Positions 4,512-24,197 of a stretch of 32,030 nucleotides of DNA are shown here, piece after piece (position 1 is the first letter of the stretch; every line of letters begins with the position of its first letter). The translations under genes were made by a program, and so were the position numbers. This DNA comes from a virus. Under the pieces are notes generated by a model, which did not search any database, was not told the DNA's origin, and saw only the letters and a program-made list of their open reading frames with translations. The stretch covers positions 1-32,030 of the IMG/VR virus record IMGVR_UViG_3300017714_000081. One strand, given 5' to 3'.

Positions 4512-4880
4512 ATGAAATATTTTACCCACAGCGAGTTTGACTCTCCTGATGAGCCTGGTTCAGGGAAAAATATGAGACATGACTTTTTAGAGATGTTAGA
4601 CTTTGCCAGAGAAGAATCAGGCATACCCTTCAAGATAACATCAGGATTCAGAACACAAGCATACAATAAAGATTTACAAGATCGAGGATACCAAGCAAGC
4701 ACTAATAGCTCACATTTAAAAGGATGTGCTGCTGACATTGCCTGTGGTAATTCCAAGCAAAGATCTATAATGGTTAGAGCATTAGTTAATGTTGGATTTA
4801 CTCGTTTGGGGATTTCAAAGACCTTCATACACGTGGATAACGATCAATCTAAGTCTGACGCAATCTGGTTATACGCATAA
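4512..4880 (+). CDS. M15-family zinc peptidase endolysin
   Basis: 122 residues, a single catalytic domain of the peptidase M15 (D-Ala-D-Ala carboxypeptidase / L-Ala-D-Glu endopeptidase) type that cleaves peptidoglycan cross-links. Visible hallmarks are SGFRT (about 44-48), SSHLKGCAADI with zinc ligands His68 and Asp75, and FIHVD with His107. There is no signal peptide, so export would depend on a holin. Length is normal for the M15_3-like single-domain phage enzymes. It follows the one-TM holin candidate by two bases, and its stop overlaps the start of the next gene (TAATG). Confidence 0.9.
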   Translation: MKYFTHSEFDSPDEPGSGKNMRHDFLEMLDFAREESGIPFKITSGFRTQAYNKDLQDRGYQASTNSSHLKGCAADIACGNSKQRSIMVRALVNVGFTRLGISKTFIHVDNDQSKSDAIWLYA

Positions 4881-6586: not shown

Positions 6587-6838
6587 ATGGAAAACAAGAT
6601 TGACGAAAAAACATTGAAGAATTTACAAGAGTTAAATTCACAGTTCAATACTATTAAAAATCAATTAGGAGATTTAGAGCTTCAAAAACATGGACTATGT
6701 TTAAAAGTAGAATCTTTAAGAGGTGAGTTTCAAGTATTGGAAGCTTCTCTTGCTGAAAAGCATGGTAAAGATGCGATTGTAAATTTAGAAACAGGAGAGG
6801 TAACTCGTAAAGAAAAAGAAAAAGAAGAAAATGGCTAA
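6587..6838 (+). CDS. Small coiled-coil protein upstream of fibres
   Basis: 83 residues, nearly all helical: heptad-like Leu/Ile spacing from about residue 9 to 60, then a short NLETGEVTRKEKEKEE tail that looks like a beta-turn followed by charged helix. One Cys. It follows a promoter and overlaps the next gene by eight bases (6831-6838). It may be a chaperone or a trimeric stalk for the fibre proteins that follow; no family is known to me. Confidence 0.72.
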   Translation: MENKIDEKTLKNLQELNSQFNTIKNQLGDLELQKHGLCLKVESLRGEFQVLEASLAEKHGKDAIVNLETGEVTRKEKEKEENG

Positions 6839-7379
6839 AATAAAAGACACCATAACGTATCCTTTAAAAACTGTTGCCGGTACAAGAGACATGGTAATCA
6901 TTACTGATGAGTATGATGGATCTACAAAAAATATGTTTTTAGGTACGGTGTCTGCATTAAACACAGGATTAGTAGGGTTTAAACAAGTTAGTTTAGAATT
7001 AACTTCAGCTGAAGTTTTAGGGTTGGTTACAACTCCTTTTACAATAGTTCCAGCTTCAGTCGACCCTAATACTTTTATTGTTCCTGTAAGTATTTTGTTA
7101 ACATTAAATACTGTTACCACTGCTTATGCTTTTAATGGTGCTGATGTTTTTTCAGTTAACTATACAACTCCTACTGTAGGAGGGGTATTAGCAAGTTTTA
7201 CAGGATCGTTTCTAAATTCAGTATCACCAACTTCTATAGCAGGATCTGCGGGAACTCTCGTTACTCTACCTATTGTTAATCAAGATTTAGTTTTAACTGG
7301 AGTAGGAAATACTCCAAGCGGAACTGGTGATAGTACTTTAAAAGTGACGGTTCAATATACAGAAATGTCAATAATATAA
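6831..7379 (+). CDS. Short fibre-like protein with the shared MAKI anchor
   Basis: 182 residues, Thr/Val/Leu-rich and beta-predicted. Its first about 42 residues (MAKIKDTITYP, then D.VIITDEYDGSTK.MFLGTVS) align with the N-terminus of the long fibre at 7391 (MAKIENITVYP, D.LIATDVSDNNKTV.FTVAS), so both probably bind the same site on the virion. The remainder is a different beta-rich domain, perhaps a small collar or short fibre. Its start overlaps the coiled-coil gene; 11 bases separate it from the long fibre. Confidence 0.72.
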   Translation: MAKIKDTITYPLKTVAGTRDMVIITDEYDGSTKNMFLGTVSALNTGLVGFKQVSLELTSAEVLGLVTTPFTIVPASVDPNTFIVPVSILLTLNTVTTAYAFNGADVFSVNYTTPTVGGVLASFTGSFLNSVSPTSIAGSAGTLVTLPIVNQDLVLTGVGNTPSGTGDSTLKVTVQYTEMSII

Positions 7380-7390
7380 CAAAATAAGAT

Positions 7391-10300
7391 ATGGCTAAAA
7401 TTGAAAACATCACAGTATATCCTACGGTAACTCCAGCGGATGATGATTTACTAATTGCAACTGACGTTAGTGATAATAATAAGACCGTCACATTTACAGT
7501 TGCCTCTATAGGCGCAGGAGGACCTGGAGTTCTTCAGGGGTTGCAATCAGTATTAGATGTAAGTAATTTTGCCACACAAAGTATTGTTTTAACAGGTGGT
7601 CCTGGGCCAAATGGATATATAGATTTAAACCAAATACTACTAACAGGATCAGCGGGAGCTGCTGGTCAAGTTCTTACTTCTGGTGGTAGTGGTGGATTAG
7701 CAACATGGACAACTCCATCTCCAAGTGGGGGTGGAGAAAATATACAGCAAACTTTAGCTATTGGAAATACAACATCATTATCAATGATAATGAATGGTGC
7801 AGGGCAGCAGTTAAGTTTATCTGGAGGGACTGATCTTAACATAGCGGGCGCAGGCTCTGATATAAATGTGGGCGCATCTTCTAATGTTATTTTATCTGAC
7901 ACCTCTACTTTAAACTTTTCAACACTAACAACAATAAGTGATTATGCTGGTAACACAGGGGTTGCAGGACAAATACTATCTATAAATCCAGCAGGAACAG
8001 GTATAGAGTGGGGTACTTTACCTCCTCCTTCTACTCCAAGTTTACAACAAGTATTAAATGTAGGTAATACAGCTGTAGGTATAGGTATAAATCTTACAGC
8101 AGCATCTCCTTTAACTTTAGATGCAACTTCTAATATTGTTTCAAACGGAAATAATACGTTTAATGGAACTAATACTTTTACTTCTACTGTAGATCTTGAT
8201 GGTTGTTTAGAGGATGTAAATGGATCATGTGGGGTAGCCGGTCAAATACTAAGTTCTACTGTATCGGGAGTTCAGTGGGTTAATGCAGCGTCTTCTACAG
8301 TGCCAACTTTACAAGTAGTATTAACTAATGGAGATACAGCTACTGAAGATATAAACCTTACGGGGAATATTGATCTTACAGGAAGCTTAGTGTTAGGGTC
8401 AAACACAACTATAAGCGCAAACGCTTCGGTTGGTACTCCAGGACAATATTTAACAGCTACAGCAACGGGCGTGGAGTGGACAACTAATGCAGCTGCAAAT
8501 CCTAATTTAGATCAGGTTTTAAGTGCAGGAAATACTTCAACACAAAATATTCTTCTTACAGGTACTGCTAATATAACAACACCAACAGTTAGCCCTGGAG
8601 CTATAGCTGTGACTAATGGTACAGGTGGTGCTAATCAGATATTACAATCTAACGCAGGTGTTCTTTCTTGGGTAAATAATACTACTACAGGAATGACGAA
8701 CTTTCAGTTGAGTGCTGATGCTGGACCTACTCAAACGATAAATGATAGTGATGTAGTTCAAGTTCTTGGCGGTACAGGATTAAGCACTTTAACCTCTAAT
8801 ACAGATATTGTTACTGTTAATTTAGATAACACAACGGTAGTTCCGGGATCATATACATATACTGACCTTACTGTAAATGCTCAAGGTCAGATTACATCGG
8901 TTACTTCTAATCCGTCCCCTCCATCAGACACAACTTATGTTTTAGATTCAGTTCAAAACGCATCAGATGCAGATATAAAATTAACATCTTCTATTGGAGT
9001 TGTTAATACAGTAAAATTAGTAGCGGGAACTAATATCACACTTACAGATACGGGTAGTAATATAACAATAGACGCAGCAGGAGGAGGTACGGGAATGACA
9101 AGCTTTAACGCTGCTGGAGATAGTGGATCTCAAACAATTACAAATGGTAATACTTTAACTATTGCGGGAGGAACAGGTATAGGAACAGCTGCATCTGCGG
9201 TTGATACAGTTACAGTAGGGCTTACCGCTTCAGGGGTTACAGCCGGTAGTTATACCAACACAGATCTTACTGTAGATATATACGGAAGAATAACAGCAGC
9301 TTCTAACGGGGCTTCTGGTGGTGGTGGTGTAACTTCAGTAACATTACAATCAGCAACAACTTCAGTAGGACCTTCTATGACTATAGCTCCAACAACAGGA
9401 GTAGTTTTAGTTACTCCTCACTCTTATAACGGAGGTAGTAATACAGGATTTGTTCCTGCAGGAGGAACATCAGCTGAAGTTTTAGGTGGAGACGGAAATT
9501 GGAAGGGCTTTACAGGAGGAAATGGGGCTGCTTCAACAGGAGCCGCTCTGATGGTGGCTGTAACTGCTACGGATGTAGATTACACATCTCATCCTTATAA
9601 TGGCGGTGTAAATGTAGGGCATGTACCATCAGGAGGAACAGCTGGTACATATTTAGAGGGAGACGGTACATGGTCTACCCCATCTTCTTCATCTTATGTT
9701 TGGAAAATATCAGACGGAACAGGCTTTTTAGGTAGTGTAAATAATGCATTCACTTGTTCGTTTATAGGGGGAACTGGAATAACAACAACTATAACTAATG
9801 CTTTTGATGTTACTTTTGATACTACTGCAGTTCTTACAGAGACAGTTGGTACATCGGTTTCTACTGGGTTTCCTCTAAGCGCTTCAATAACTACTAATAA
9901 TCTTTCACTTATTTCCCATTCTTATGCTGGGGGATCTAATGTCGGATACGTTCCCACAGGAGGAACAGCCGGTACTGTTCTTGATGGTACCGGAAACTGG
10001 GTTGCTCAAACTGCTGCAGGAGTTTCTTCCGTAACAATACAGTCGGGTACGAATTCTACAGGAGCGCCTATTTCACAAAACGCAACAACAGGCGCTATAA
10101 CATGGACTCCTCATCAATATGACGGAGGTACTAATGTAGGTTATGTTCCTACAGGTTCAGGAGGAACAGCTACCTTATATTTAGACGGATCAGGAAACTG
10201 GAGCGCTCCAGTAGGAACATTAACAAGTTTTACATTAGCAGGTAATACTGGATCTACAGCTACTGTAGATAACGGAGATCTCGTTGGTATTCAAGGAACA

Positions 10301-10528
10301 AATGCTTCCGGAGGATTAACTTTTTCTGTAACACCTATTGGAACAAATAATATAATAACAGGATTAATAGTTCCAACTGGGGTAACAGCTGGTTCTTATA
10401 CTAATTCTAATGTTACTGTAAATGCTCAAGGTCAAATTACCAATATAAGTAATGGTACAGGAGGAGGAATTACAGACGTACAAATTTCAGCAACAGGAAC
10501 ATCTACAGGGTTAAATGATTCTTTATAA
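7391..10528 (+). CDS. Long modular tail fibre, N-terminal part ending at an in-frame TAA
   Basis: 1045 residues, Gly/Thr/Ser/Asn-rich, no charged core, the composition of a trimeric beta-fibre. After the MAKI anchor (1-40) come GQ.L...G..W repeats with L..VL..GNT...I.LTG strands (to about residue 430), then three GSYT..D/N.TV...G.IT.. units, interleaved with units of the form HxYxGGxNxG.VP..GG ending DG.G.W. The TAA at 10526-10528 is in frame with the next 250 codons, which contain another copy of the last unit and a tip domain. The natural gene is therefore probably 7391-11281 (1296 codons before the final stop, one being TAA). Function inferred: host recognition. Confidence 0.85.
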   Translation: MAKIENITVYPTVTPADDDLLIATDVSDNNKTVTFTVASIGAGGPGVLQGLQSVLDVSNFATQSIVLTGGPGPNGYIDLNQILLTGSAGAAGQVLTSGGSGGLATWTTPSPSGGGENIQQTLAIGNTTSLSMIMNGAGQQLSLSGGTDLNIAGAGSDINVGASSNVILSDTSTLNFSTLTTISDYAGNTGVAGQILSINPAGTGIEWGTLPPPSTPSLQQVLNVGNTAVGIGINLTAASPLTLDATSNIVSNGNNTFNGTNTFTSTVDLDGCLEDVNGSCGVAGQILSSTVSGVQWVNAASSTVPTLQVVLTNGDTATEDINLTGNIDLTGSLVLGSNTTISANASVGTPGQYLTATATGVEWTTNAAANPNLDQVLSAGNTSTQNILLTGTANITTPTVSPGAIAVTNGTGGANQILQSNAGVLSWVNNTTTGMTNFQLSADAGPTQTINDSDVVQVLGGTGLSTLTSNTDIVTVNLDNTTVVPGSYTYTDLTVNAQGQITSVTSNPSPPSDTTYVLDSVQNASDADIKLTSSIGVVNTVKLVAGTNITLTDTGSNITIDAAGGGTGMTSFNAAGDSGSQTITNGNTLTIAGGTGIGTAASAVDTVTVGLTASGVTAGSYTNTDLTVDIYGRITAASNGASGGGGVTSVTLQSATTSVGPSMTIAPTTGVVLVTPHSYNGGSNTGFVPAGGTSAEVLGGDGNWKGFTGGNGAASTGAALMVAVTATDVDYTSHPYNGGVNVGHVPSGGTAGTYLEGDGTWSTPSSSSYVWKISDGTGFLGSVNNAFTCSFIGGTGITTTITNAFDVTFDTTAVLTETVGTSVSTGFPLSASITTNNLSLISHSYAGGSNVGYVPTGGTAGTVLDGTGNWVAQTAAGVSSVTIQSGTNSTGAPISQNATTGAITWTPHQYDGGTNVGYVPTGSGGTATLYLDGSGNWSAPVGTLTSFTLAGNTGSTATVDNGDLVGIQGTNASGGLTFSVTPIGTNNIITGLIVPTGVTAGSYTNSNVTVNAQGQITNISNGTGGGITDVQISATGTSTGLNDSL

Positions 10529-10666
10529 GCAAATGTTGTTGGTACTACAGCTTTTCTTACCCCTAATGTATTTGCCGGAGGAGTTAATGTTGGGAATGTT
10601 CCAAATTCTGCTGCTGTAACAGCTGGACAAGAAAGAGCCCACATGTTGGCAGCCGATGGGACTTGG
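9419..10666 (+). repeat. Five diverged copies of the GGxNxG-VP fibre module
   Basis: Copies at about 9419-9502, 9590-9673, 9917-10000, 10112-10201 and 10565-10666. Each encodes a Tyr/Phe-x-Gly-Gly-x-Asn-x-Gly-x-Val-Pro turn followed about 17-24 residues later by (D)G.G/T.W. They differ at many synonymous positions, so they are old. The fifth copy lies after the in-frame TAA. Confidence 0.8.
10526..10528 (+). other. In-frame TAA interrupting the long fibre gene
   Basis: Reading frames 7391-10528 and 10529-11281 are the same phase. No ATG lies between the stop and 10643, yet the 38 codons in between encode recognisable fibre-module sequence (ending NVFAGGVNVGNVP and on). This marks a nonsense change, a readthrough site or a base error. 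TAA, TAG and TGA all end other genes here, so a general alternative genetic code is unlikely. Confidence 0.8.
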
Positions 10667-11281
10667 CAAACAACTGCAGCAACCTCAATGGTAAGAGATA
10701 GATTTTCTGTAGCAGAGCAAAAGTATATGCCCGGTCAATATTGGGTTGCCAGAAGTCCTGAAACTGGAGGAACCGGTCTTAATAATATTAATATGACTCG
10801 TTTTTGGCAACCTACTAATTCATCACCAGCAACAGCCGCAACTACATGGACTGCATTGCAATACGGTTCTGGTCAGATACTTCAACAGCCATCCCTACAG
10901 TATTCAATAGCAGGAACAGAAGAAAATTGTATTTCCGCAGCTTCAGGATTTGTTACTTATCACAGTAATGGGGCAGCTTCTTCAGCTGCAATAGCCCATA
11001 TTTTTGAATTATGGCATGTAACAAATTATTGCACAAATACAAATGCTTCGTTAGTAGGAACCTTTACTTTTACCGTTAGTGGAGGTCCTCTTCCTATTAA
11101 TGATGATGGCGCTATAGATTGTCAAGATATGGTGTGGAATGGTGGTCAGGTAAGAAAACTTGATGCGGGCGAAGGGCTTTTATTAACTTATAGGTTTGAC
11201 CCTCTTGGCAGCGGACAAACTCAACATAGCGCTGATATGTTTTTTGATTTAACTATGAAATATCAGACCTCAACACTTTAA
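10643..11281 (+). CDS. C-terminal tip part of the long fibre (separate frame after TAA)
   Basis: If initiated on its own, the first ATG is 10643 (212 residues); the coding homology extends up to 10529. Residues 1-15 finish the last fibre module. Then MVRDRFSVAEQKYMPGQYWV starts a compact domain with Trp/Tyr-rich strands, several Cys, GTFTFTVSGGPLP, and an end FFDLTMKYQTSTL. This is what a receptor-binding tip looks like, though no family is recognised. No ribosome site of note precedes 10643. I infer it is normally the C-terminus of the 7391 protein; if produced only by reinitiation it could not be anchored by the MAKI domain. Confidence 0.75.
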   Translation: MLAADGTWQTTAATSMVRDRFSVAEQKYMPGQYWVARSPETGGTGLNNINMTRFWQPTNSSPATAATTWTALQYGSGQILQQPSLQYSIAGTEENCISAASGFVTYHSNGAASSAAIAHIFELWHVTNYCTNTNASLVGTFTFTVSGGPLPINDDGAIDCQDMVWNGGQVRKLDAGEGLLLTYRFDPLGSGQTQHSADMFFDLTMKYQTSTL

Positions 11282-11301
11282 ATTAAATAAAATAAAATGA
11301 A

Positions 11302-11520
11302 ATGGACATCAGAAAAATATCAATCGGCTCAGACTATAAGTCTGGAGCTATGCATTATATAGTAGGTCAGGAAGTATTAGGGGGTTCTCATAAAATACAT
11401 CTTATTCAAGGAGACAGTCTTTCTTATAAAATATGGATTCAAAGAGGTGATGAGATATATATGTGGAAAGAATTTCTTAGCACCCTTCCTATATCATTAG
11501 AATATAACATAAACTTTTAG
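11302..11520 (+). CDS. Small conserved-looking protein coupled to the GroES-like gene
   Basis: 72 residues, unrecognised function. Sequence features: KISIGSDYKSGAMHYIVGQ near the N-terminus, then IHLI, YKIWIQ, EIYMWKEF and a final SLEYNINF; mixed alpha/beta, neutral. Start is the ATG at 11302 after an A/T-rich leader; a second ATG at 11297 opens only a 21-codon frame. Its TAG overlaps the GTG start of the next gene (TAGTG), so it is probably a functional partner of the co-chaperonin candidate. Confidence 0.68.
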   Translation: MDIRKISIGSDYKSGAMHYIVGQEVLGGSHKIHLIQGDSLSYKIWIQRGDEIYMWKEFLSTLPISLEYNINF

Positions 11521-12083
11521 TGAGGTCTCCCGACTCTTTTATTGTAACCCCTGTCAATGATAGGCGATACGATAACCTTAAAGAAATATCTGGAGTAAAA
11601 TTTATTACCAGTGTTTCTGAGGAAGATCACACAGCTTCTAATCGTTTTGCAACAGTAATAGAAACTCCTATAGGTTATAACGGAGCTGTTAAAAAAGGAG
11701 ACACCTTATTAGTTCATCATAATGTTTTTAAATTTTATAATGACATGCAGGGTCGTAGAAAAAGCGGCAGAAGTCATTTAAAAGATAATTTGTTTTTAGT
11801 AGATTATGATCAATTTTTTATGTATAAAAATAAAGACAAATGGAAAGCTTGGGGTAAATATTGTTTTATAAAACCTATTGAATTAGAAGATTCGTATATT
11901 TTTAAAGGAGGAAGTGAAGAGCCTTTGTTTGGTATTGTAAAATATATTAATCAAGAATTGTTAGATTTAGGAGTACAAGAAGGGGATAAAATATCTTACA
12001 CTCCTGACAGCGATTATCCTTTTAATATTGAGGGAGAAAAATTGTACCGAATGTTTACAGACAATATAACTATGACATTATGA
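11520..12083 (+). CDS. Tandem GroES-fold co-chaperonin candidate
   Basis: 187 residues with a GTG start at 11520. Two GroES-like halves can be read. Half 1 (about 5-103): FIVTPVNDRR, a loop SGVKFITSVS at the position of the GroES mobile loop, then GAVKKGDTLLVHH and a closing YDQFFMYK. Half 2 (about 113-187): KYCFIKPIE, LFGIVKYINQ, GVQEGDKISY, and GEKLYRMFTDNITMTL, very close in pattern to the GroES C-terminus (G..VGDKV, GEELLIM.EDDILA). Phages such as T4 encode GroES substitutes (gp31) to fold large capsid proteins with host GroEL. The position before the packaging and capsid genes fits. Half 2 lacks a clear mobile loop. Alternative: a GroES fold used for another purpose. Confidence 0.62.
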   Translation: MRSPDSFIVTPVNDRRYDNLKEISGVKFITSVSEEDHTASNRFATVIETPIGYNGAVKKGDTLLVHHNVFKFYNDMQGRRKSGRSHLKDNLFLVDYDQFFMYKNKDKWKAWGKYCFIKPIELEDSYIFKGGSEEPLFGIVKYINQELLDLGVQEGDKISYTPDSDYPFNIEGEKLYRMFTDNITMTL

Positions 12084-12652
12084 TACATATTATAGATAAT
12101 TTTATAGATAAAGATTTATTTAAAATAGCTGAAAAATATTTAAAAAAAGGAGAGTTTATAAAGCACACAGCAGGAGATAAAAATTTTTACATTCAAGAAT
12201 CTCCTACATCTTTTGATGATTATGTTTTAAGAAAATTAGGAATGATAGAAGGAAGGCCTTTAGAAAATATACTAAGTTTTTTTAGAGTTTCAAATGAAGA
12301 TCTTGATAATAAATGGCGTATACATTCAGACTTAAACATAGATGGTAAAAAGCCTGATAGAGCTGCTGTTCTTTATATGTCTAATAGAAAAGTAGAGAGT
12401 CTTCATGGAACAGCTTTTTGGGAACATGAGGTTTACGGGAAAAACCTTCCTGATCATATAACAGATGAAGAATACAATAAATTAATAGAGGTCGACTCTG
12501 AAGAGTTAGATATGTGGAGATTAGTTTCTGTAGCGGGTTATGAGCAAAACAGATTGGTATCATATCCTGCTAATTATTTTCACAGCAAATATCCTAATAA
12601 GTCATGGAAGGAAGGGAGAGAGGTATATGTTATGTTTTATAAATTTAAGTAA
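12080..12652 (+). CDS. 2OG-Fe(II) oxygenase-like protein (second copy type)
   Basis: 190 residues, coupled to the GroES-like gene by ATGA. Iron ligands: His82-x-Asp84 in WRIHSDL and His168 in YPANYFHSKYP, with Arg180 as the likely 2-oxoglutarate ligand. RAAVLYMSN and HGTAFWEHEVYG supply the central strands typical of phage 2OG oxygenases with a DUF6445-like look. The family hydroxylates proteins, nucleic acids or small molecules; substrate unknown. It is not closely similar to the 5966 protein, so this is a second independent member. Its stop overlaps the next start (TAATG), placing it in the terminase operon. Confidence 0.8.
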   Translation: MIHIIDNFIDKDLFKIAEKYLKKGEFIKHTAGDKNFYIQESPTSFDDYVLRKLGMIEGRPLENILSFFRVSNEDLDNKWRIHSDLNIDGKKPDRAAVLYMSNRKVESLHGTAFWEHEVYGKNLPDHITDEEYNKLIEVDSEELDMWRLVSVAGYEQNRLVSYPANYFHSKYPNKSWKEGREVYVMFYKFK

Positions 12653-12930
12653 TGGACACTAAAGAAATTAAGTTAGAAATAATAAAGGCTGGAGAAAAAG
12701 CAGTCAAACAATTAATTAAAGTAGCTAAAGAAGATATTATAAAGTATGAAGCAGAAGACCCTTTAGCCGCAGACAGATTAAAAAATGCAGCAGCTACAAA
12801 AAAACTTTGTATTATGGATGCATTTGAAATATTAAAACGTATAGAAGAAGAAAGAGCATTATTAGAAGGAACTGTAGCTGACAAAAAAACTAATACATTA
12901 AAAGGATTTGCAGAGTCAAGATCAAAATAA
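12652..12930 (+). CDS. Putative small terminase subunit
   Basis: 92 residues, all-helical, mixed charge: IKLEIIKAGEKAVKQLIKVA, then a DPLAADRLKNAAATKKL helix and MDAFEILKRIEEERALLEG. The gene ends inside the start of the large terminase (23-base overlap). Position, size and helical oligomer-like character fit a small terminase that recognises phage DNA and feeds it to the motor, but no DNA-binding motif is visible, so this is an inference from context. Confidence 0.5.
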   Translation: MDTKEIKLEIIKAGEKAVKQLIKVAKEDIIKYEAEDPLAADRLKNAAATKKLCIMDAFEILKRIEEERALLEGTVADKKTNTLKGFAESRSK

Positions 12931-15154
12931 ATTATATAAAGAATTAAAAGGAGTTATTCCTAAATCTGTTTTATCTAATAAAAACAGAGGGAGGTCTTGG
13001 GCGTACGGTTATAATGAGAAATATGATATAGTGGTTATATCTAAAGACGGTCAAATAGGTAGCGTTATAGATATAAATGGATTAAAAATAGGAATGCCTA
13101 AAGTCCCTACAAAAGTTTTTAAAAGATCAGAAGAAAAAAAAGATCAATACTGGGAGGCTGTACCCTTATCTAAAGAGTTAAATAGAATAAAATCTATATT
13201 TCAGTGGCATGAAACTCCTGACAACTTTAAGTCTCAATGGGTAGATTATATAGAAAAAGAGTTTGACAGAAGAGAGCAGGGCTTTTGGTTTATGAATAAT
13301 GGAGTCCCTACCTATATCACAGGCACTCATTATATGTATTTGCAGTGGACAAAAATTGATGTAGGTAATCCAGATTTTAGAGAAGCTAATAGAATTTTCT
13401 ATATATTCTGGGAAGCTTCTAAAGCTGATAAAAGAAGCTTTGGAATGTGTTATTTAAAAATAAGGCGTTCAGGATTTTCATTTATGAGTTCATGTGAAGG
13501 TGTTAACCAGGCTACTATTACTAAAGACTCAAGGATAGGAATATTATCTAAAAGTGGGTCTGATGCTAAAAAAATGTTTACTGATAAAGTTGTTCCTATC
13601 TCTAATAATTACCCATTCTTTTTTAAGCCTATTCAAGATGGTATGGATAAACCTAAAACAGAATTAGCATATAGAGTACCGGCTTCTAAGATTACAAAAA
13701 AAAATATGTACCATTTAGCTGATGAAGAACTTGAAGGATTAGACACCACTATTGACTGGAAAAACACAGGAGATAACAGTTATGATGGTGAAAAATTACA
13801 ATTACTACTTCATGATGAAAGTGGTAAATGGGAAAAACCTGATAACATTTTAAATAACTGGAGGGTAACAAAAACTTGTTTACGTTTAGGTAGCAAGGTT
13901 ATTGGAAAGTGTATGATGGGATCAACTTCGAACGCTTTAGATAAGGGGGGAAGAAATTTTAAATCACTTTATGAGGATTCTTTTCCTTCTAAAAGAAACG
14001 CAAATGGCCAAACAAAAAGCGGCCTATATTGTTTATTTATACCTATGGAATGGAACTTTGAGGGATATATAGACAGATATGGAATGCCTGTTTTTAAAAC
14101 TCCCGCCAAACCTATTGTAGGTATAGATGGTGAAGATATTAATATAGGAGCAATAGATTATTGGGAAAATGAAGTTAGTTCTTTGACGCAAGATCCTGAC
14201 GCTTTAAATGAATTTTACAGACAATTTCCAAGAACAGAGTCTCATGCGTTTAGAGATGAAAGCAAACAATCTTTATTTAACTTAACTAAAATATATCAAC
14301 AAGTAGATTATAATGACTCTTTAATAATGGATCACCATACAACAAGAGGATCTTTTCAGTGGAAAGATGGAGTTAAAGATACTGAAGTAATATGGTCCCC
14401 TAATAAAAATGGAAGATTTTTAGTAACCTGGACACCAGGGAAGGGTTTGATGAATAAAGTTATAACAGCCAGAGGTATGAAAAAACCAGGGAATGAACAC
14501 TTAGGTTCTTTTGGTTGTGATTCTTATGATATATCTGGCGTAGTTGTAGGGAAGGGTTCTAACGGAGCATTGCATGGTCTGACTAAATTTAATATGGATA
14601 GTGCGCCAAGTAATGAGTTTTTTTTAGAATATATAGCACGCCCACAGACTGCGGAAATATTTTTTGAAGAAGTATTAATGGCTTGTGTTTTTTATGGGAT
14701 GCCTATACTTTGTGAAAACAATAAACCTCGCTTATTGTATCACTTTAAAAATAGAGGATATAGAGGATATTGTTTAAATCGTCCTGACAAAACCTATAAC
14801 AAATTATCTAAAACAGAAAAAGAATTAGGAGGAATACCTAACACTTCTGAAGACGTAAAACAATCTCATGCTTCAGCAATAGAATCTTATATTGAAAAGC
14901 ATGTTGGTATTGATTTATTAGGGGATTATAGAGATCAAGATGATATGGGAAGGATGTATTTTCAAAGAACTTTAGAAGACTGGGCTAAGTTTGATATTAA
15001 CAATAGAACTAAGTTTGATGCAGCTATTAGTTCAGGATTAGCTATCATGGCTAACCAAAAACACTTATATACTCCATCTAAAGAAAAATCAAAAATAAGT
15101 ATTAACTTTGCAAGATATAATAATAAGAATACATTAAGTAAAATAATTACATGA
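12908..15154 (+). CDS. terL: Terminase large subunit
   Basis: 748 residues from a TTG start at 12908; an upstream in-frame stop leaves no earlier start, and no ATG occurs until residue 63, so the start is uncertain. ATPase: a degenerate Walker A RRSGFS (186-191) without the usual Gly-Lys-Thr/Ser, Walker B LLLHDE (Asp303, Glu304) and coupling motif GSTSN (338-342). Nuclease, RNase H-like: Asp538 in GCDSYD, Glu603 in LCENN, Asp704 in FDAAISSGLA. It packages DNA into the prohead through the portal and cuts it. Length is at the long end for the family. It overlaps the portal gene by ATGA. Confidence 0.9.
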   Translation: MQSQDQNKLYKELKGVIPKSVLSNKNRGRSWAYGYNEKYDIVVISKDGQIGSVIDINGLKIGMPKVPTKVFKRSEEKKDQYWEAVPLSKELNRIKSIFQWHETPDNFKSQWVDYIEKEFDRREQGFWFMNNGVPTYITGTHYMYLQWTKIDVGNPDFREANRIFYIFWEASKADKRSFGMCYLKIRRSGFSFMSSCEGVNQATITKDSRIGILSKSGSDAKKMFTDKVVPISNNYPFFFKPIQDGMDKPKTELAYRVPASKITKKNMYHLADEELEGLDTTIDWKNTGDNSYDGEKLQLLLHDESGKWEKPDNILNNWRVTKTCLRLGSKVIGKCMMGSTSNALDKGGRNFKSLYEDSFPSKRNANGQTKSGLYCLFIPMEWNFEGYIDRYGMPVFKTPAKPIVGIDGEDINIGAIDYWENEVSSLTQDPDALNEFYRQFPRTESHAFRDESKQSLFNLTKIYQQVDYNDSLIMDHHTTRGSFQWKDGVKDTEVIWSPNKNGRFLVTWTPGKGLMNKVITARGMKKPGNEHLGSFGCDSYDISGVVVGKGSNGALHGLTKFNMDSAPSNEFFLEYIARPQTAEIFFEEVLMACVFYGMPILCENNKPRLLYHFKNRGYRGYCLNRPDKTYNKLSKTEKELGGIPNTSEDVKQSHASAIESYIEKHVGIDLLGDYRDQDDMGRMYFQRTLEDWAKFDINNRTKFDAAISSGLAIMANQKHLYTPSKEKSKISINFARYNNKNTLSKIIT

Positions 15155-17586
15155 AAGCAGTCACTATAAATATCCAATCAGCTGCCTTCCCAGATCAATT
15201 TGTGTCCGATGCAGATAAAAAGAAAAAAACTTTTGGGTTACAGGTAGGTCAAGCAATACAATACGAATGGTTTAGAAAGGATGGCATGAATTGTAGATTC
15301 TACAATCAGTGGGCAGATTTTAACCGACTAAGACTGTATGCGAGAGGAGAGCAATCAGTTGCAAAATATAAAAACGAATTAGCGGTAGATGGAGATTTAT
15401 CTTACCTTAACTTAGACTGGTCGCCTATTCCTGTTATACCTAAGTTTGTTGATATAGTAGTAAATGGAATGGCGGATAGATTATTTAAAGTAAATTGCCA
15501 GGCACAAGATGCTATGTCTGCAGAAAAAAGAAATGAATTTCAAAAGATGATTGAGGTAAATGTGGCTGCTCAAGATTTATTTCATCAAGTTGAAAAAGAT
15601 TTTCAAATGAATGTTTTTCAAGTAGACCCCAAAACACTTCCTCAAAGTGATGCTGAAATGGAGTTGTACATGCAATTAAATTATAAACCAGGGATAGAAA
15701 TTGCTAATGAAATTGCTATTAACACTATGCTGGAAGAAAATCATTATTCTGATATTCGTAAAAGAGTAGATTATGATTTAACTACTATAGGTATAGGTAT
15801 TACTAAACACATGTTTCAGCAAGGAGATGGTATTCGTGTAGAGTATGTAGACCCTGCAAATGTAGTTTATAGTTATACTGAAGATCCTTATTTTAAAGAT
15901 TGTTTTTATTGGGGTGAACTTAAGACAGTTCCTATTTCGGAGGTGTTAAAAATCAATCCAGATTTAACAACAGAAGATTTAGAGGAAATATCAAAATATA
16001 GTCAAGCTTGGTATGATTACTATAATACAGCTGCTATTTATGAGAATAGTATGTTTGCAAGAGACACTTGTACATTGTTGTTTTTTAATTATAAAACTAC
16101 TAATAGTTTTGTTTATAAGAAAAAACAAACTGCAGAAGGAACTTTTAAAACAGTAGAAAAAGATGATCAATTTAACCCTCCAGAAGAAATGATGGAGGAG
16201 GGTAATTTTGAAAGAGTAGAAAAAAGAATTGACGTATGGTATGATGGGGTTATGGTAATGGGAAGCAATATGCTTCTTAAGTGGGAAATGATGGAGAATA
16301 TGGTCCGTCCTAATTCTGCCAATCAACATGCCATGTCTAACTATGTAGCGTGCGCTCCAAGAATGTATAAAGGTATTTTAGATTCTTTAGTTAAAAGAAT
16401 GATTCCTTTTGCAGATTTAATTCAAATAAGTCATTTAAAATTACAACAAGTTGTTTCTAAGGTAGTTCCTGACGGGGTATTTATTGATGCTGACGGATTA
16501 AGTGAGGTAGATTTAGGAACGGGTAATGCTTATGATCCTTCAGATGCTTTACGATTATACTTTCAAACAGGTAGTGTAGTGGGTAGAAGTTATACTCAAG
16601 ACGGAGAATATAATAATGCAAAAGTTCCAATTACTCAGTTAACATCTAATAGTGGTAGTAGTAAGATGCAAATGCTTATAGGTAATTATAATCACTATTT
16701 AGGAATGATAAGGCAAGTAACTGGATTAAATGAAGCCAGGGATGCTTCTACTCCTGACCCTAACTCTTTAGTGGGTGTTCAGAAGTTAGCAGCGTTAAAT
16801 TCTAATGTAGCTACCAGACACATTCTTAATTCAAGTTTATATATAACCAGAACTTTAGCTGAAGCTCTTTCAATAAGGACTGCGGATGTGTTAGAATACG
16901 CTGACTTTAAAGATGAATTTGCTATGCAAATTGGTAAATATAATTTAGGAATTATAGAAGAAATTAAAAATTTATATTTATATGACTTTGGTGTGTTTAT
17001 TGAAATGAGTCCTGATGAAGAAGAAAAAGCTCAGTTAGAGGCTAATATTCAGGTAGCATTAAAAATGGGCGGAATTGATTTGGAAGACGCTATTGATATT
17101 AGAACTATTAATAATTTAAAAATGGCTAATCAATTATTAAAAGTTAAGCGTAAACAAAGTGCTGCCGAAAAGAAAGAGGCTGAAATGCAAAAGCAGGCTA
17201 TGCAAGGTCAACAGCAACAGGCTATTCAGAAGCAGGCGGCTCAGGCTAAAATGCAACAAACTCAGGCTGAATTACAAGCTAAGATTCAAATTAAAAAAGC
17301 AGAAATTGCTTTTGAAATTGAAAAACAAACTAACGAGGCTGATTTAAAAAGAAGACTAATGGATGTTGAATTTAACTACAACATGCAATTACGAGGTATG
17401 GAGCAACAGCAGGTAGATATGAGAGAAAAAAAGAAAGAAGAAGGTAAGTCTCAAAGAATAGCTGAAGGAAACACGCAACAATCTAAAATGATTGAGCAAA
17501 GAAAAAACAATTTGCCAGCTATGAATTTTGAGTCGAATGAAGATAGTTTAGATGGGTTTGATTTAGCAGAATTTAATCCCAGATAG
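15151..17586 (+). CDS. Portal protein, crAss-like type
   Basis: 811 residues, ATG overlapping the terminase stop. The N-terminal 600 residues carry a portal-type core (for example VIPKFVDIVVNGMADRL, about 87-103, then the conserved-looking EYVDPANVVYSYTEDP segment and VTGLNEARD), which I recognise as the portal of crAss-like and related Bacteroidota phages. The dodecameric ring would be the DNA gate and terminase dock. Residues about 670-780 are a Gln/Lys/Ala-rich coiled coil (QGQQQQAIQKQAAQAK...), and the tail is acidic. A promoter follows. Confidence 0.85.
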   Translation: MKAVTINIQSAAFPDQFVSDADKKKKTFGLQVGQAIQYEWFRKDGMNCRFYNQWADFNRLRLYARGEQSVAKYKNELAVDGDLSYLNLDWSPIPVIPKFVDIVVNGMADRLFKVNCQAQDAMSAEKRNEFQKMIEVNVAAQDLFHQVEKDFQMNVFQVDPKTLPQSDAEMELYMQLNYKPGIEIANEIAINTMLEENHYSDIRKRVDYDLTTIGIGITKHMFQQGDGIRVEYVDPANVVYSYTEDPYFKDCFYWGELKTVPISEVLKINPDLTTEDLEEISKYSQAWYDYYNTAAIYENSMFARDTCTLLFFNYKTTNSFVYKKKQTAEGTFKTVEKDDQFNPPEEMMEEGNFERVEKRIDVWYDGVMVMGSNMLLKWEMMENMVRPNSANQHAMSNYVACAPRMYKGILDSLVKRMIPFADLIQISHLKLQQVVSKVVPDGVFIDADGLSEVDLGTGNAYDPSDALRLYFQTGSVVGRSYTQDGEYNNAKVPITQLTSNSGSSKMQMLIGNYNHYLGMIRQVTGLNEARDASTPDPNSLVGVQKLAALNSNVATRHILNSSLYITRTLAEALSIRTADVLEYADFKDEFAMQIGKYNLGIIEEIKNLYLYDFGVFIEMSPDEEEKAQLEANIQVALKMGGIDLEDAIDIRTINNLKMANQLLKVKRKQSAAEKKEAEMQKQAMQGQQQQAIQKQAAQAKMQQTQAELQAKIQIKKAEIAFEIEKQTNEADLKRRLMDVEFNYNMQLRGMEQQQVDMREKKKEEGKSQRIAEGNTQQSKMIEQRKNNLPAMNFESNEDSLDGFDLAEFNPR

Positions 17587-23261: not shown

Positions 23262-24197
23262 ATGGCATATATTACAGATTATCAATATTACGAAAATGGT
23301 ATAGTACCTCCAGGCTCAAGTCCTGAATCTGAAAAAAATTGGGGGTCATATCAATATGTTACCTTAGAAAATATAGTTAATAATTTTATGTTAATGTATC
23401 AGGGTAATCATGAAATTGTTAATAATATAAATAGATATCAAGTTTTATTTCACGCAAAAAGAGGAATTCAAGAATTGAATTATGATGCGATGAAAGAAAT
23501 AAAAATATTAGAATTAGAAGTTTGTGAAGAATTAAGATTTGTTCTTCCTCCCGATTATGTAAATTGGGTAAGAGTTTCTTTAATGGAAAATGGAATGCTT
23601 TTCCCTATGACTGAAAATATTCAGACTAATTGGAGTGGGGCTTATTTGCAAGATAATGACTGTCGTATTTTATTTGATATAGACGGAAATGTATTGAAGC
23701 CAGCTGATTCTTTCTTTGATATAAAAAGATTAGACGGAACTCAAAAAAACATGTACATGGGTACAGGTCCTTATCATGGTTCGTTAGGCTATAATATAGA
23801 TGGAACTTGGTATTTTGACTATGCAGTTGGCGGTAGATTTGGAATGAATACAGAAACCGCAAATGTAAATCCTACTTTTAGTATAAATAAAAGTGGAGGT
23901 GTAATTAATTTTAATTCAGGAATGATGGGTAAATTTGTAGTTTTAGAATACGTATCAGATGGATTAGAAAAAGGAGATGATTCTTTGGTTAGTGTTAATA
24001 AATTATTTGAAGAGTTTATATATGCTTACATAAGGTACTCTATTGTAAATAGTAAATTTGGAGTTCAAGAATATGTGGTTAATAGAGCAAGAAAAGATAA
24101 ATCTTCTTTATTAAGAAACGCTAAATTAAGATTAAGCAATATACACCCCGGGAGGCTTTTACAAAACTTAAGAGGTCAGAATAAATGGATAAAATAG
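23262..24197 (+). CDS. Tail tubular protein (P22 gp4-like, crAss-like type)
   Basis: 311 residues. Segments VTLENIVNNFMLMYQGNHE, RYQVLFHAKRGIQELNYDAM, KEIKILELEV and LPPDYVNWVRVSLME correspond to what I recall of the crAss-like tail tubular (gp4-like) protein. C-terminal half is FDYAVGGRFGMN and helical YAYIRYSIVNSKFG. It forms the ring that joins the connector to the tail. One base separates it from the stabilization protein, another crAss-like neighbour, which supports the call. Confidence 0.82.
   Translation: MAYITDYQYYENGIVPPGSSPESEKNWGSYQYVTLENIVNNFMLMYQGNHEIVNNINRYQVLFHAKRGIQELNYDAMKEIKILELEVCEELRFVLPPDYVNWVRVSLMENGMLFPMTENIQTNWSGAYLQDNDCRILFDIDGNVLKPADSFFDIKRLDGTQKNMYMGTGPYHGSLGYNIDGTWYFDYAVGGRFGMNTETANVNPTFSINKSGGVINFNSGMMGKFVVLEYVSDGLEKGDDSLVSVNKLFEEFIYAYIRYSIVNSKFGVQEYVVNRARKDKSSLLRNAKLRLSNIHPGRLLQNLRGQNKWIK

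Follow-up and report, generated by a model that had tools for sequence, protein, structure and literature searches.

An in-frame stop codon in the long fibre gene of a marine podovirus-like phage is best explained as a recent one-base nonsense change or a consensus error

Results

A single in-frame TAA interrupts a long fibre gene

We analysed a virus record of 32,030 bases, hereafter the window. Positions 7391-11281 on the plus strand form a single reading frame of 1296 codons, counting the stop as one codon, whose sole interruption is a TAA at 10526-10528. The part before the stop (7391-10528, 1045 codons plus TAA) encodes an N-terminal anchor of ~45 residues (MAKIENITVYPTVTPADDDLLIATDV...), a beta-rich, low-complexity shaft and four GGxNxG-VP modules, and its N-terminus is homologous in more than 30 relatives. 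The remainder (10529-11281, plus strand, 250 codons plus TAA) lies in the same phase, stays open to the TAA at 11279-11281, and encodes a fifth GGxNxG-VP/ADGTW module followed by a C-terminal tip domain. Between the stop and the ATG at 10643, which opens a frame of 212 amino acids, the 38 codons starting at 10529 are fibre module sequence and include the unit FAGGVNVGNVP, the fifth in a series begun by four similar units (SYNGGSNTGFVP, PYNGGVNVGHVP, SYAGGSNVGYVP and QYDGGTNVGYVP). A preliminary description of this locus, made from the sequence alone, had reported the shared phase, the module sequence within the 38 codons and the fifth copy of the repeat, and the frames and translations confirm all three. 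The normal product would be a fibre of ~1296 residues in which an N-terminal anchor is followed by a beta-rich shaft, bearing several GGxNxG-VP...DGTW modules in repeat, and then by a C-terminal tip; translation of the window allele would stop short of the last module and the tip.

Searches of Pfam and PHROGs with the fibre and tip gave no informative match, there was no match among PDB sequences, and the tip matched none of the phage records searched. An AlphaFold model of the tip, built from 8 sequences, had a mean pLDDT of 42, which is insufficient for searching by fold. Because no family or structure matched, we assigned the roles of anchor, shaft and tip from position and composition.

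Immediately upstream of the fibre gene, a 182-amino-acid protein (6831-7379, plus strand) is an intact short anchor paralogue, a weak copy of the fibre N-terminal anchor: the N-termini encoded at 6831-7379 and 7391-7525 are weakly similar (MAKIKDTITYPLKT... and MAKIENITVYPTVT..., respectively). Many relatives have only a short anchor protein (~172-182 amino acids) before a conserved 72-amino-acid gene, with long tail genes elsewhere. Together, this likeness and the relatives that have just a short anchor suggest that the 182-amino-acid protein is an adaptor paralogue and that the receptor-binding module comes in two layouts. The conserved 72-amino-acid gene (11302-11520, plus strand) directly follows the fibre gene in relatives. 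The sequence at 11520-12083 has its match in phrog_13932 (E = 1.6e-23), a family of phage GroES-like co-chaperonins, and is conserved near the fibre across relatives; its product is possibly a fibre-folding helper.

In a PHROGs search, the terminase large subunit (12908-15154, plus strand), the portal and a virion structural protein matched phrog_6681, phrog_6547 and phrog_13704, respectively. The terminase, used as the query for finding relatives, matches at least 600 IMG/VR stretches and, among named phages, those of Flavobacterium, Cellulophaga, Tenacibaculum and Maribacter, as well as Caudoviricetes sp. MW202828.1 (Podoviridae sp. ctfjg026). The window comes from a marine podovirus-like phage, kin of Flavobacterium and Cellulophaga phages. 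Its terminase is 73% identical to that of MW202828.1 and 45% identical to those of Flavobacterium phages elemoA/B/E, in which we found no match to the window fibre. MW202828.1 has the same local gene order, with one 648-codon CDS where the fibre sits, but its fibre differs, being only ~30% identical across 33% of its length. Just upstream of that fibre, MW202828.1 carries an annotated peptidase M15; in the window, 4512-4880 may encode an M15 peptidase-type endolysin.

A near-identical contig has a sense codon at the stop site

A search of IMG/VR with the DNA pattern across the stop site matched one contig only, IMGVR_UViG_3300020469_001319 (L002), which comes from another metagenome; hence, no further near-identical copies spanning the stop are known (n = 1). 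L002 corresponds to 10053-17278 of the window and differs from it at 3 positions in 7,226 bases (99.96% identity), and it holds only the last third of the fibre gene because the contig ends there. Two of the differences are silent third-position changes, at 10129 in the fibre gene and 13372 in the terminase gene. The third is a one-base change within the codon 10526-10528; in L002 this codon (L002:474-476) is sense, and the fibre frame there is therefore open. The flanks are otherwise conserved, and downstream of the stop the fibre sequence is identical in the two contigs; the tip is therefore undecayed. Random substitutions in the fibre gene create a stop in ~3.8% of cases, giving a probability of ~0.11 for one stop among three differences.

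More distant contigs agree with L002. IMGVR_UViG_3300035195_000305 (L005) and 3300025168_001290 (L087) have identical fibres in a single ORF of 1296 codons, and IMGVR_UViG_3300031688_000080 (L161) has a single ORF of 1292 codons; their tips are 75-77% (L005/L087) and 70% (L161) identical to that of the window. N-terminus, modules and tip are shared between the window and L005, L087, L161 and L002, total length is equal in L005 and L087, and in L005 the fibre gene likewise lies between the 182-amino-acid anchor paralogue and the conserved 72-amino-acid gene. Unlike in the window, however, codon 1046 is not a stop in any of these contigs: the two further alleles represented by L005, L087 and L161 have the same sense residue as L002. 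In L162 and L163, which are further removed still, the site is sense but encodes other residues, again within single ORFs. Since homologous sequence runs continuously through the stop site of relatives in one 1296-codon ORF, the open frame beyond the stop in the window is not due to chance. The absence of the stop from L002 and from every close relative examined makes an ordinary one-letter mutation or a sequence error the most likely explanation.

These comparisons also bear on whether shaft and tip are two genes, the second starting at the ATG at 10643. This ATG does begin an ORF of 212 amino acids, but fibre module sequence runs through the 38 codons that precede it, no stop breaks the frame at this site in L002, L005, L087 or L161, and the annotation of the relative MW202828.1 shows just one CDS where the fibre lies. 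The preliminary description had noted that its view of one broken gene would fail if related phages had two separate genes with no homology across the gap; instead, relatives with homologous tips all have single ORFs, and homology is continuous across the gap. Two genes are thus exceedingly improbable; the separate ORF from 10643 is a by-product of the TAA, and both annotated ORFs are best regarded as parts of a single fibre gene.

The stop shows no sign of programmed readthrough

The frame remains open before and after the stop and the tip is intact, as would be expected if regulated readthrough of the TAA produced a mixture of tipless and full-length fibres acting as a host-range switch, a possibility raised in the preliminary description. 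However, the stop is conserved in none of the relatives, so programmed readthrough is unsupported: the codon is a sense codon in L002 and the three contigs carrying the two further alleles, and encodes other residues in L162 and L163. We found no stimulatory RNA structure by the stop relative to shuffled sequences (z = +1.34 for 10529-10628 and +0.95 for 10476-10575, for pseudoknot-free folds), and TAA is a normal stop in this phage, ending 25 of 34 genes. Programmed readthrough is therefore highly unlikely. The preliminary description had called the break recent, regulated or an artefact; the sense codons in L002, L005, L087 and L161, of the kind that it had named as a refutation if shown by reads over 10526-10528, bear out the first and last of these, and the comparison with related genomes that it proposed, together with the ordinary RNA structure and the absence of recoding, leaves the regulated option and the host-range switch unsupported.

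We also considered reassignment of TAA under an alternative genetic code. Given that TAA terminates 25 of 34 genes and that, in comparable window genes set against the L005 genome, we found no in-frame stop besides the fibre TAA, recoding is excluded.

Most long fibres at this locus are single ORFs

We surveyed 36 long fibres with the N-terminal anchor, using the conserved 72-amino-acid gene as a landmark; the list was compiled by hand from ORF tables, omitting visibly duplicate loci. Thirty-three are single ORFs (540-2115 codons) and three, including the window, are broken. The other two, L016 and L057, have frameshifts at other positions rather than the stop seen in the window. The L057 frameshift lies near the C-terminal part (L057:7082-7209) and that of L016 in the shaft (L016:3950-4000). 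A second frameshift in L016, in its homologue of 23262-24197, makes errors likely in that contig. Among 430 complete copies of ten other conserved genes from relatives (521 kb), 3 were broken; fibres are not significantly richer in breaks than these genes (conditional P = 0.07 including the window and 0.21 excluding it).

The fibre tip diverges faster than the N-terminal region

Over shared stretches, the window and L005 are ~91-93% identical in nucleotide sequence. Within the fibre, the first part of the protein is ~95% identical, against 75-77% for the tip; nucleotide identity is 93-97% in the N-terminal region and ~81-82% in the tip. Divergence between 8111-11281 and L005:4146-7316 is uneven, with 97% nucleotide identity in codons 251-500 and 80% in codons 741-900, a pattern that suggests exchange of modules, or else diversifying change, across the distal half. 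The tip thus diverges faster than the N-terminal region, as would be expected of a receptor-binding end.

Discussion

We conclude that 7391-11281 is a single fibre gene whose codon 1046 is a stop either through a consensus error or as a recent natural null allele, and is not programmed (probability roughly 0.93). The stop arises from a one-base change, the codon is sense in near-identical as well as related contigs, and the tip shows no decay. The truncated fibre is presumably defective, and the stop is probably rare or absent in the real phage population.

The chance that an error of sequencing, amplification or assembly, confined to the window contig, produced the stop is about even. The stop is seen only in the window, each of the other three homologous-tip alleles has an unbroken gene, and broken frames do occur in environmental contigs of this family, as the conserved-gene copies show; against this, the change in the window is a substitution, whereas most other breaks are frameshifts, and the other two differences from L002 resemble real silent variation. 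That silence suggests genuine strain variation with a low error rate, making a natural mutation possible. A real recent nonsense allele, whether dead, complemented by co-infection or a briefly favoured tipless mutant, accordingly has a probability somewhat short of one half; the silent differences are those of real polymorphism, but we did not find a second sample with the stop, and the enrichment of breaks in fibres is weak. On balance, the silent differences lean slightly towards natural variation, and the absence of a second observation leans towards error.

It is very unlikely that the stop is polymorphic and kept in natural populations, with selection maintaining both tipless and full-length particles. 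If it were, the breaks in the window, L016 and L057 would be recurrent loss-of-tip alleles rather than errors, and a stop that is real and maintained would constitute a natural polymorphism in a phage receptor-binding protein. Our analysis does away with the fibre switch, an attractive claim that lacks support, and indicates that comparison with a near-identical contig from a second metagenome can resolve the status of an in-frame stop in a metagenomic virus even when no reads are consulted.

The side tail fibre of laboratory lambda was lost when stf acquired a frameshift (Hendrix and Duda 1992, as cited in PMC10721106), and stf mutants were selected again under biofilm-like growth (PMC2762979). 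These cases make a tip-loss allele plausible biology, but as ordinary mutation rather than a switch. Lambda PaPa differs from the window in that its mutation is a frameshift in a phage propagated and studied in the laboratory, whereas the change in the window is a substitution, seen in a single metagenomic contig and showing no sign of selection. In both, however, a fibre gene is broken by a point-size mutation, and in lambda PaPa the phage lineage persists.
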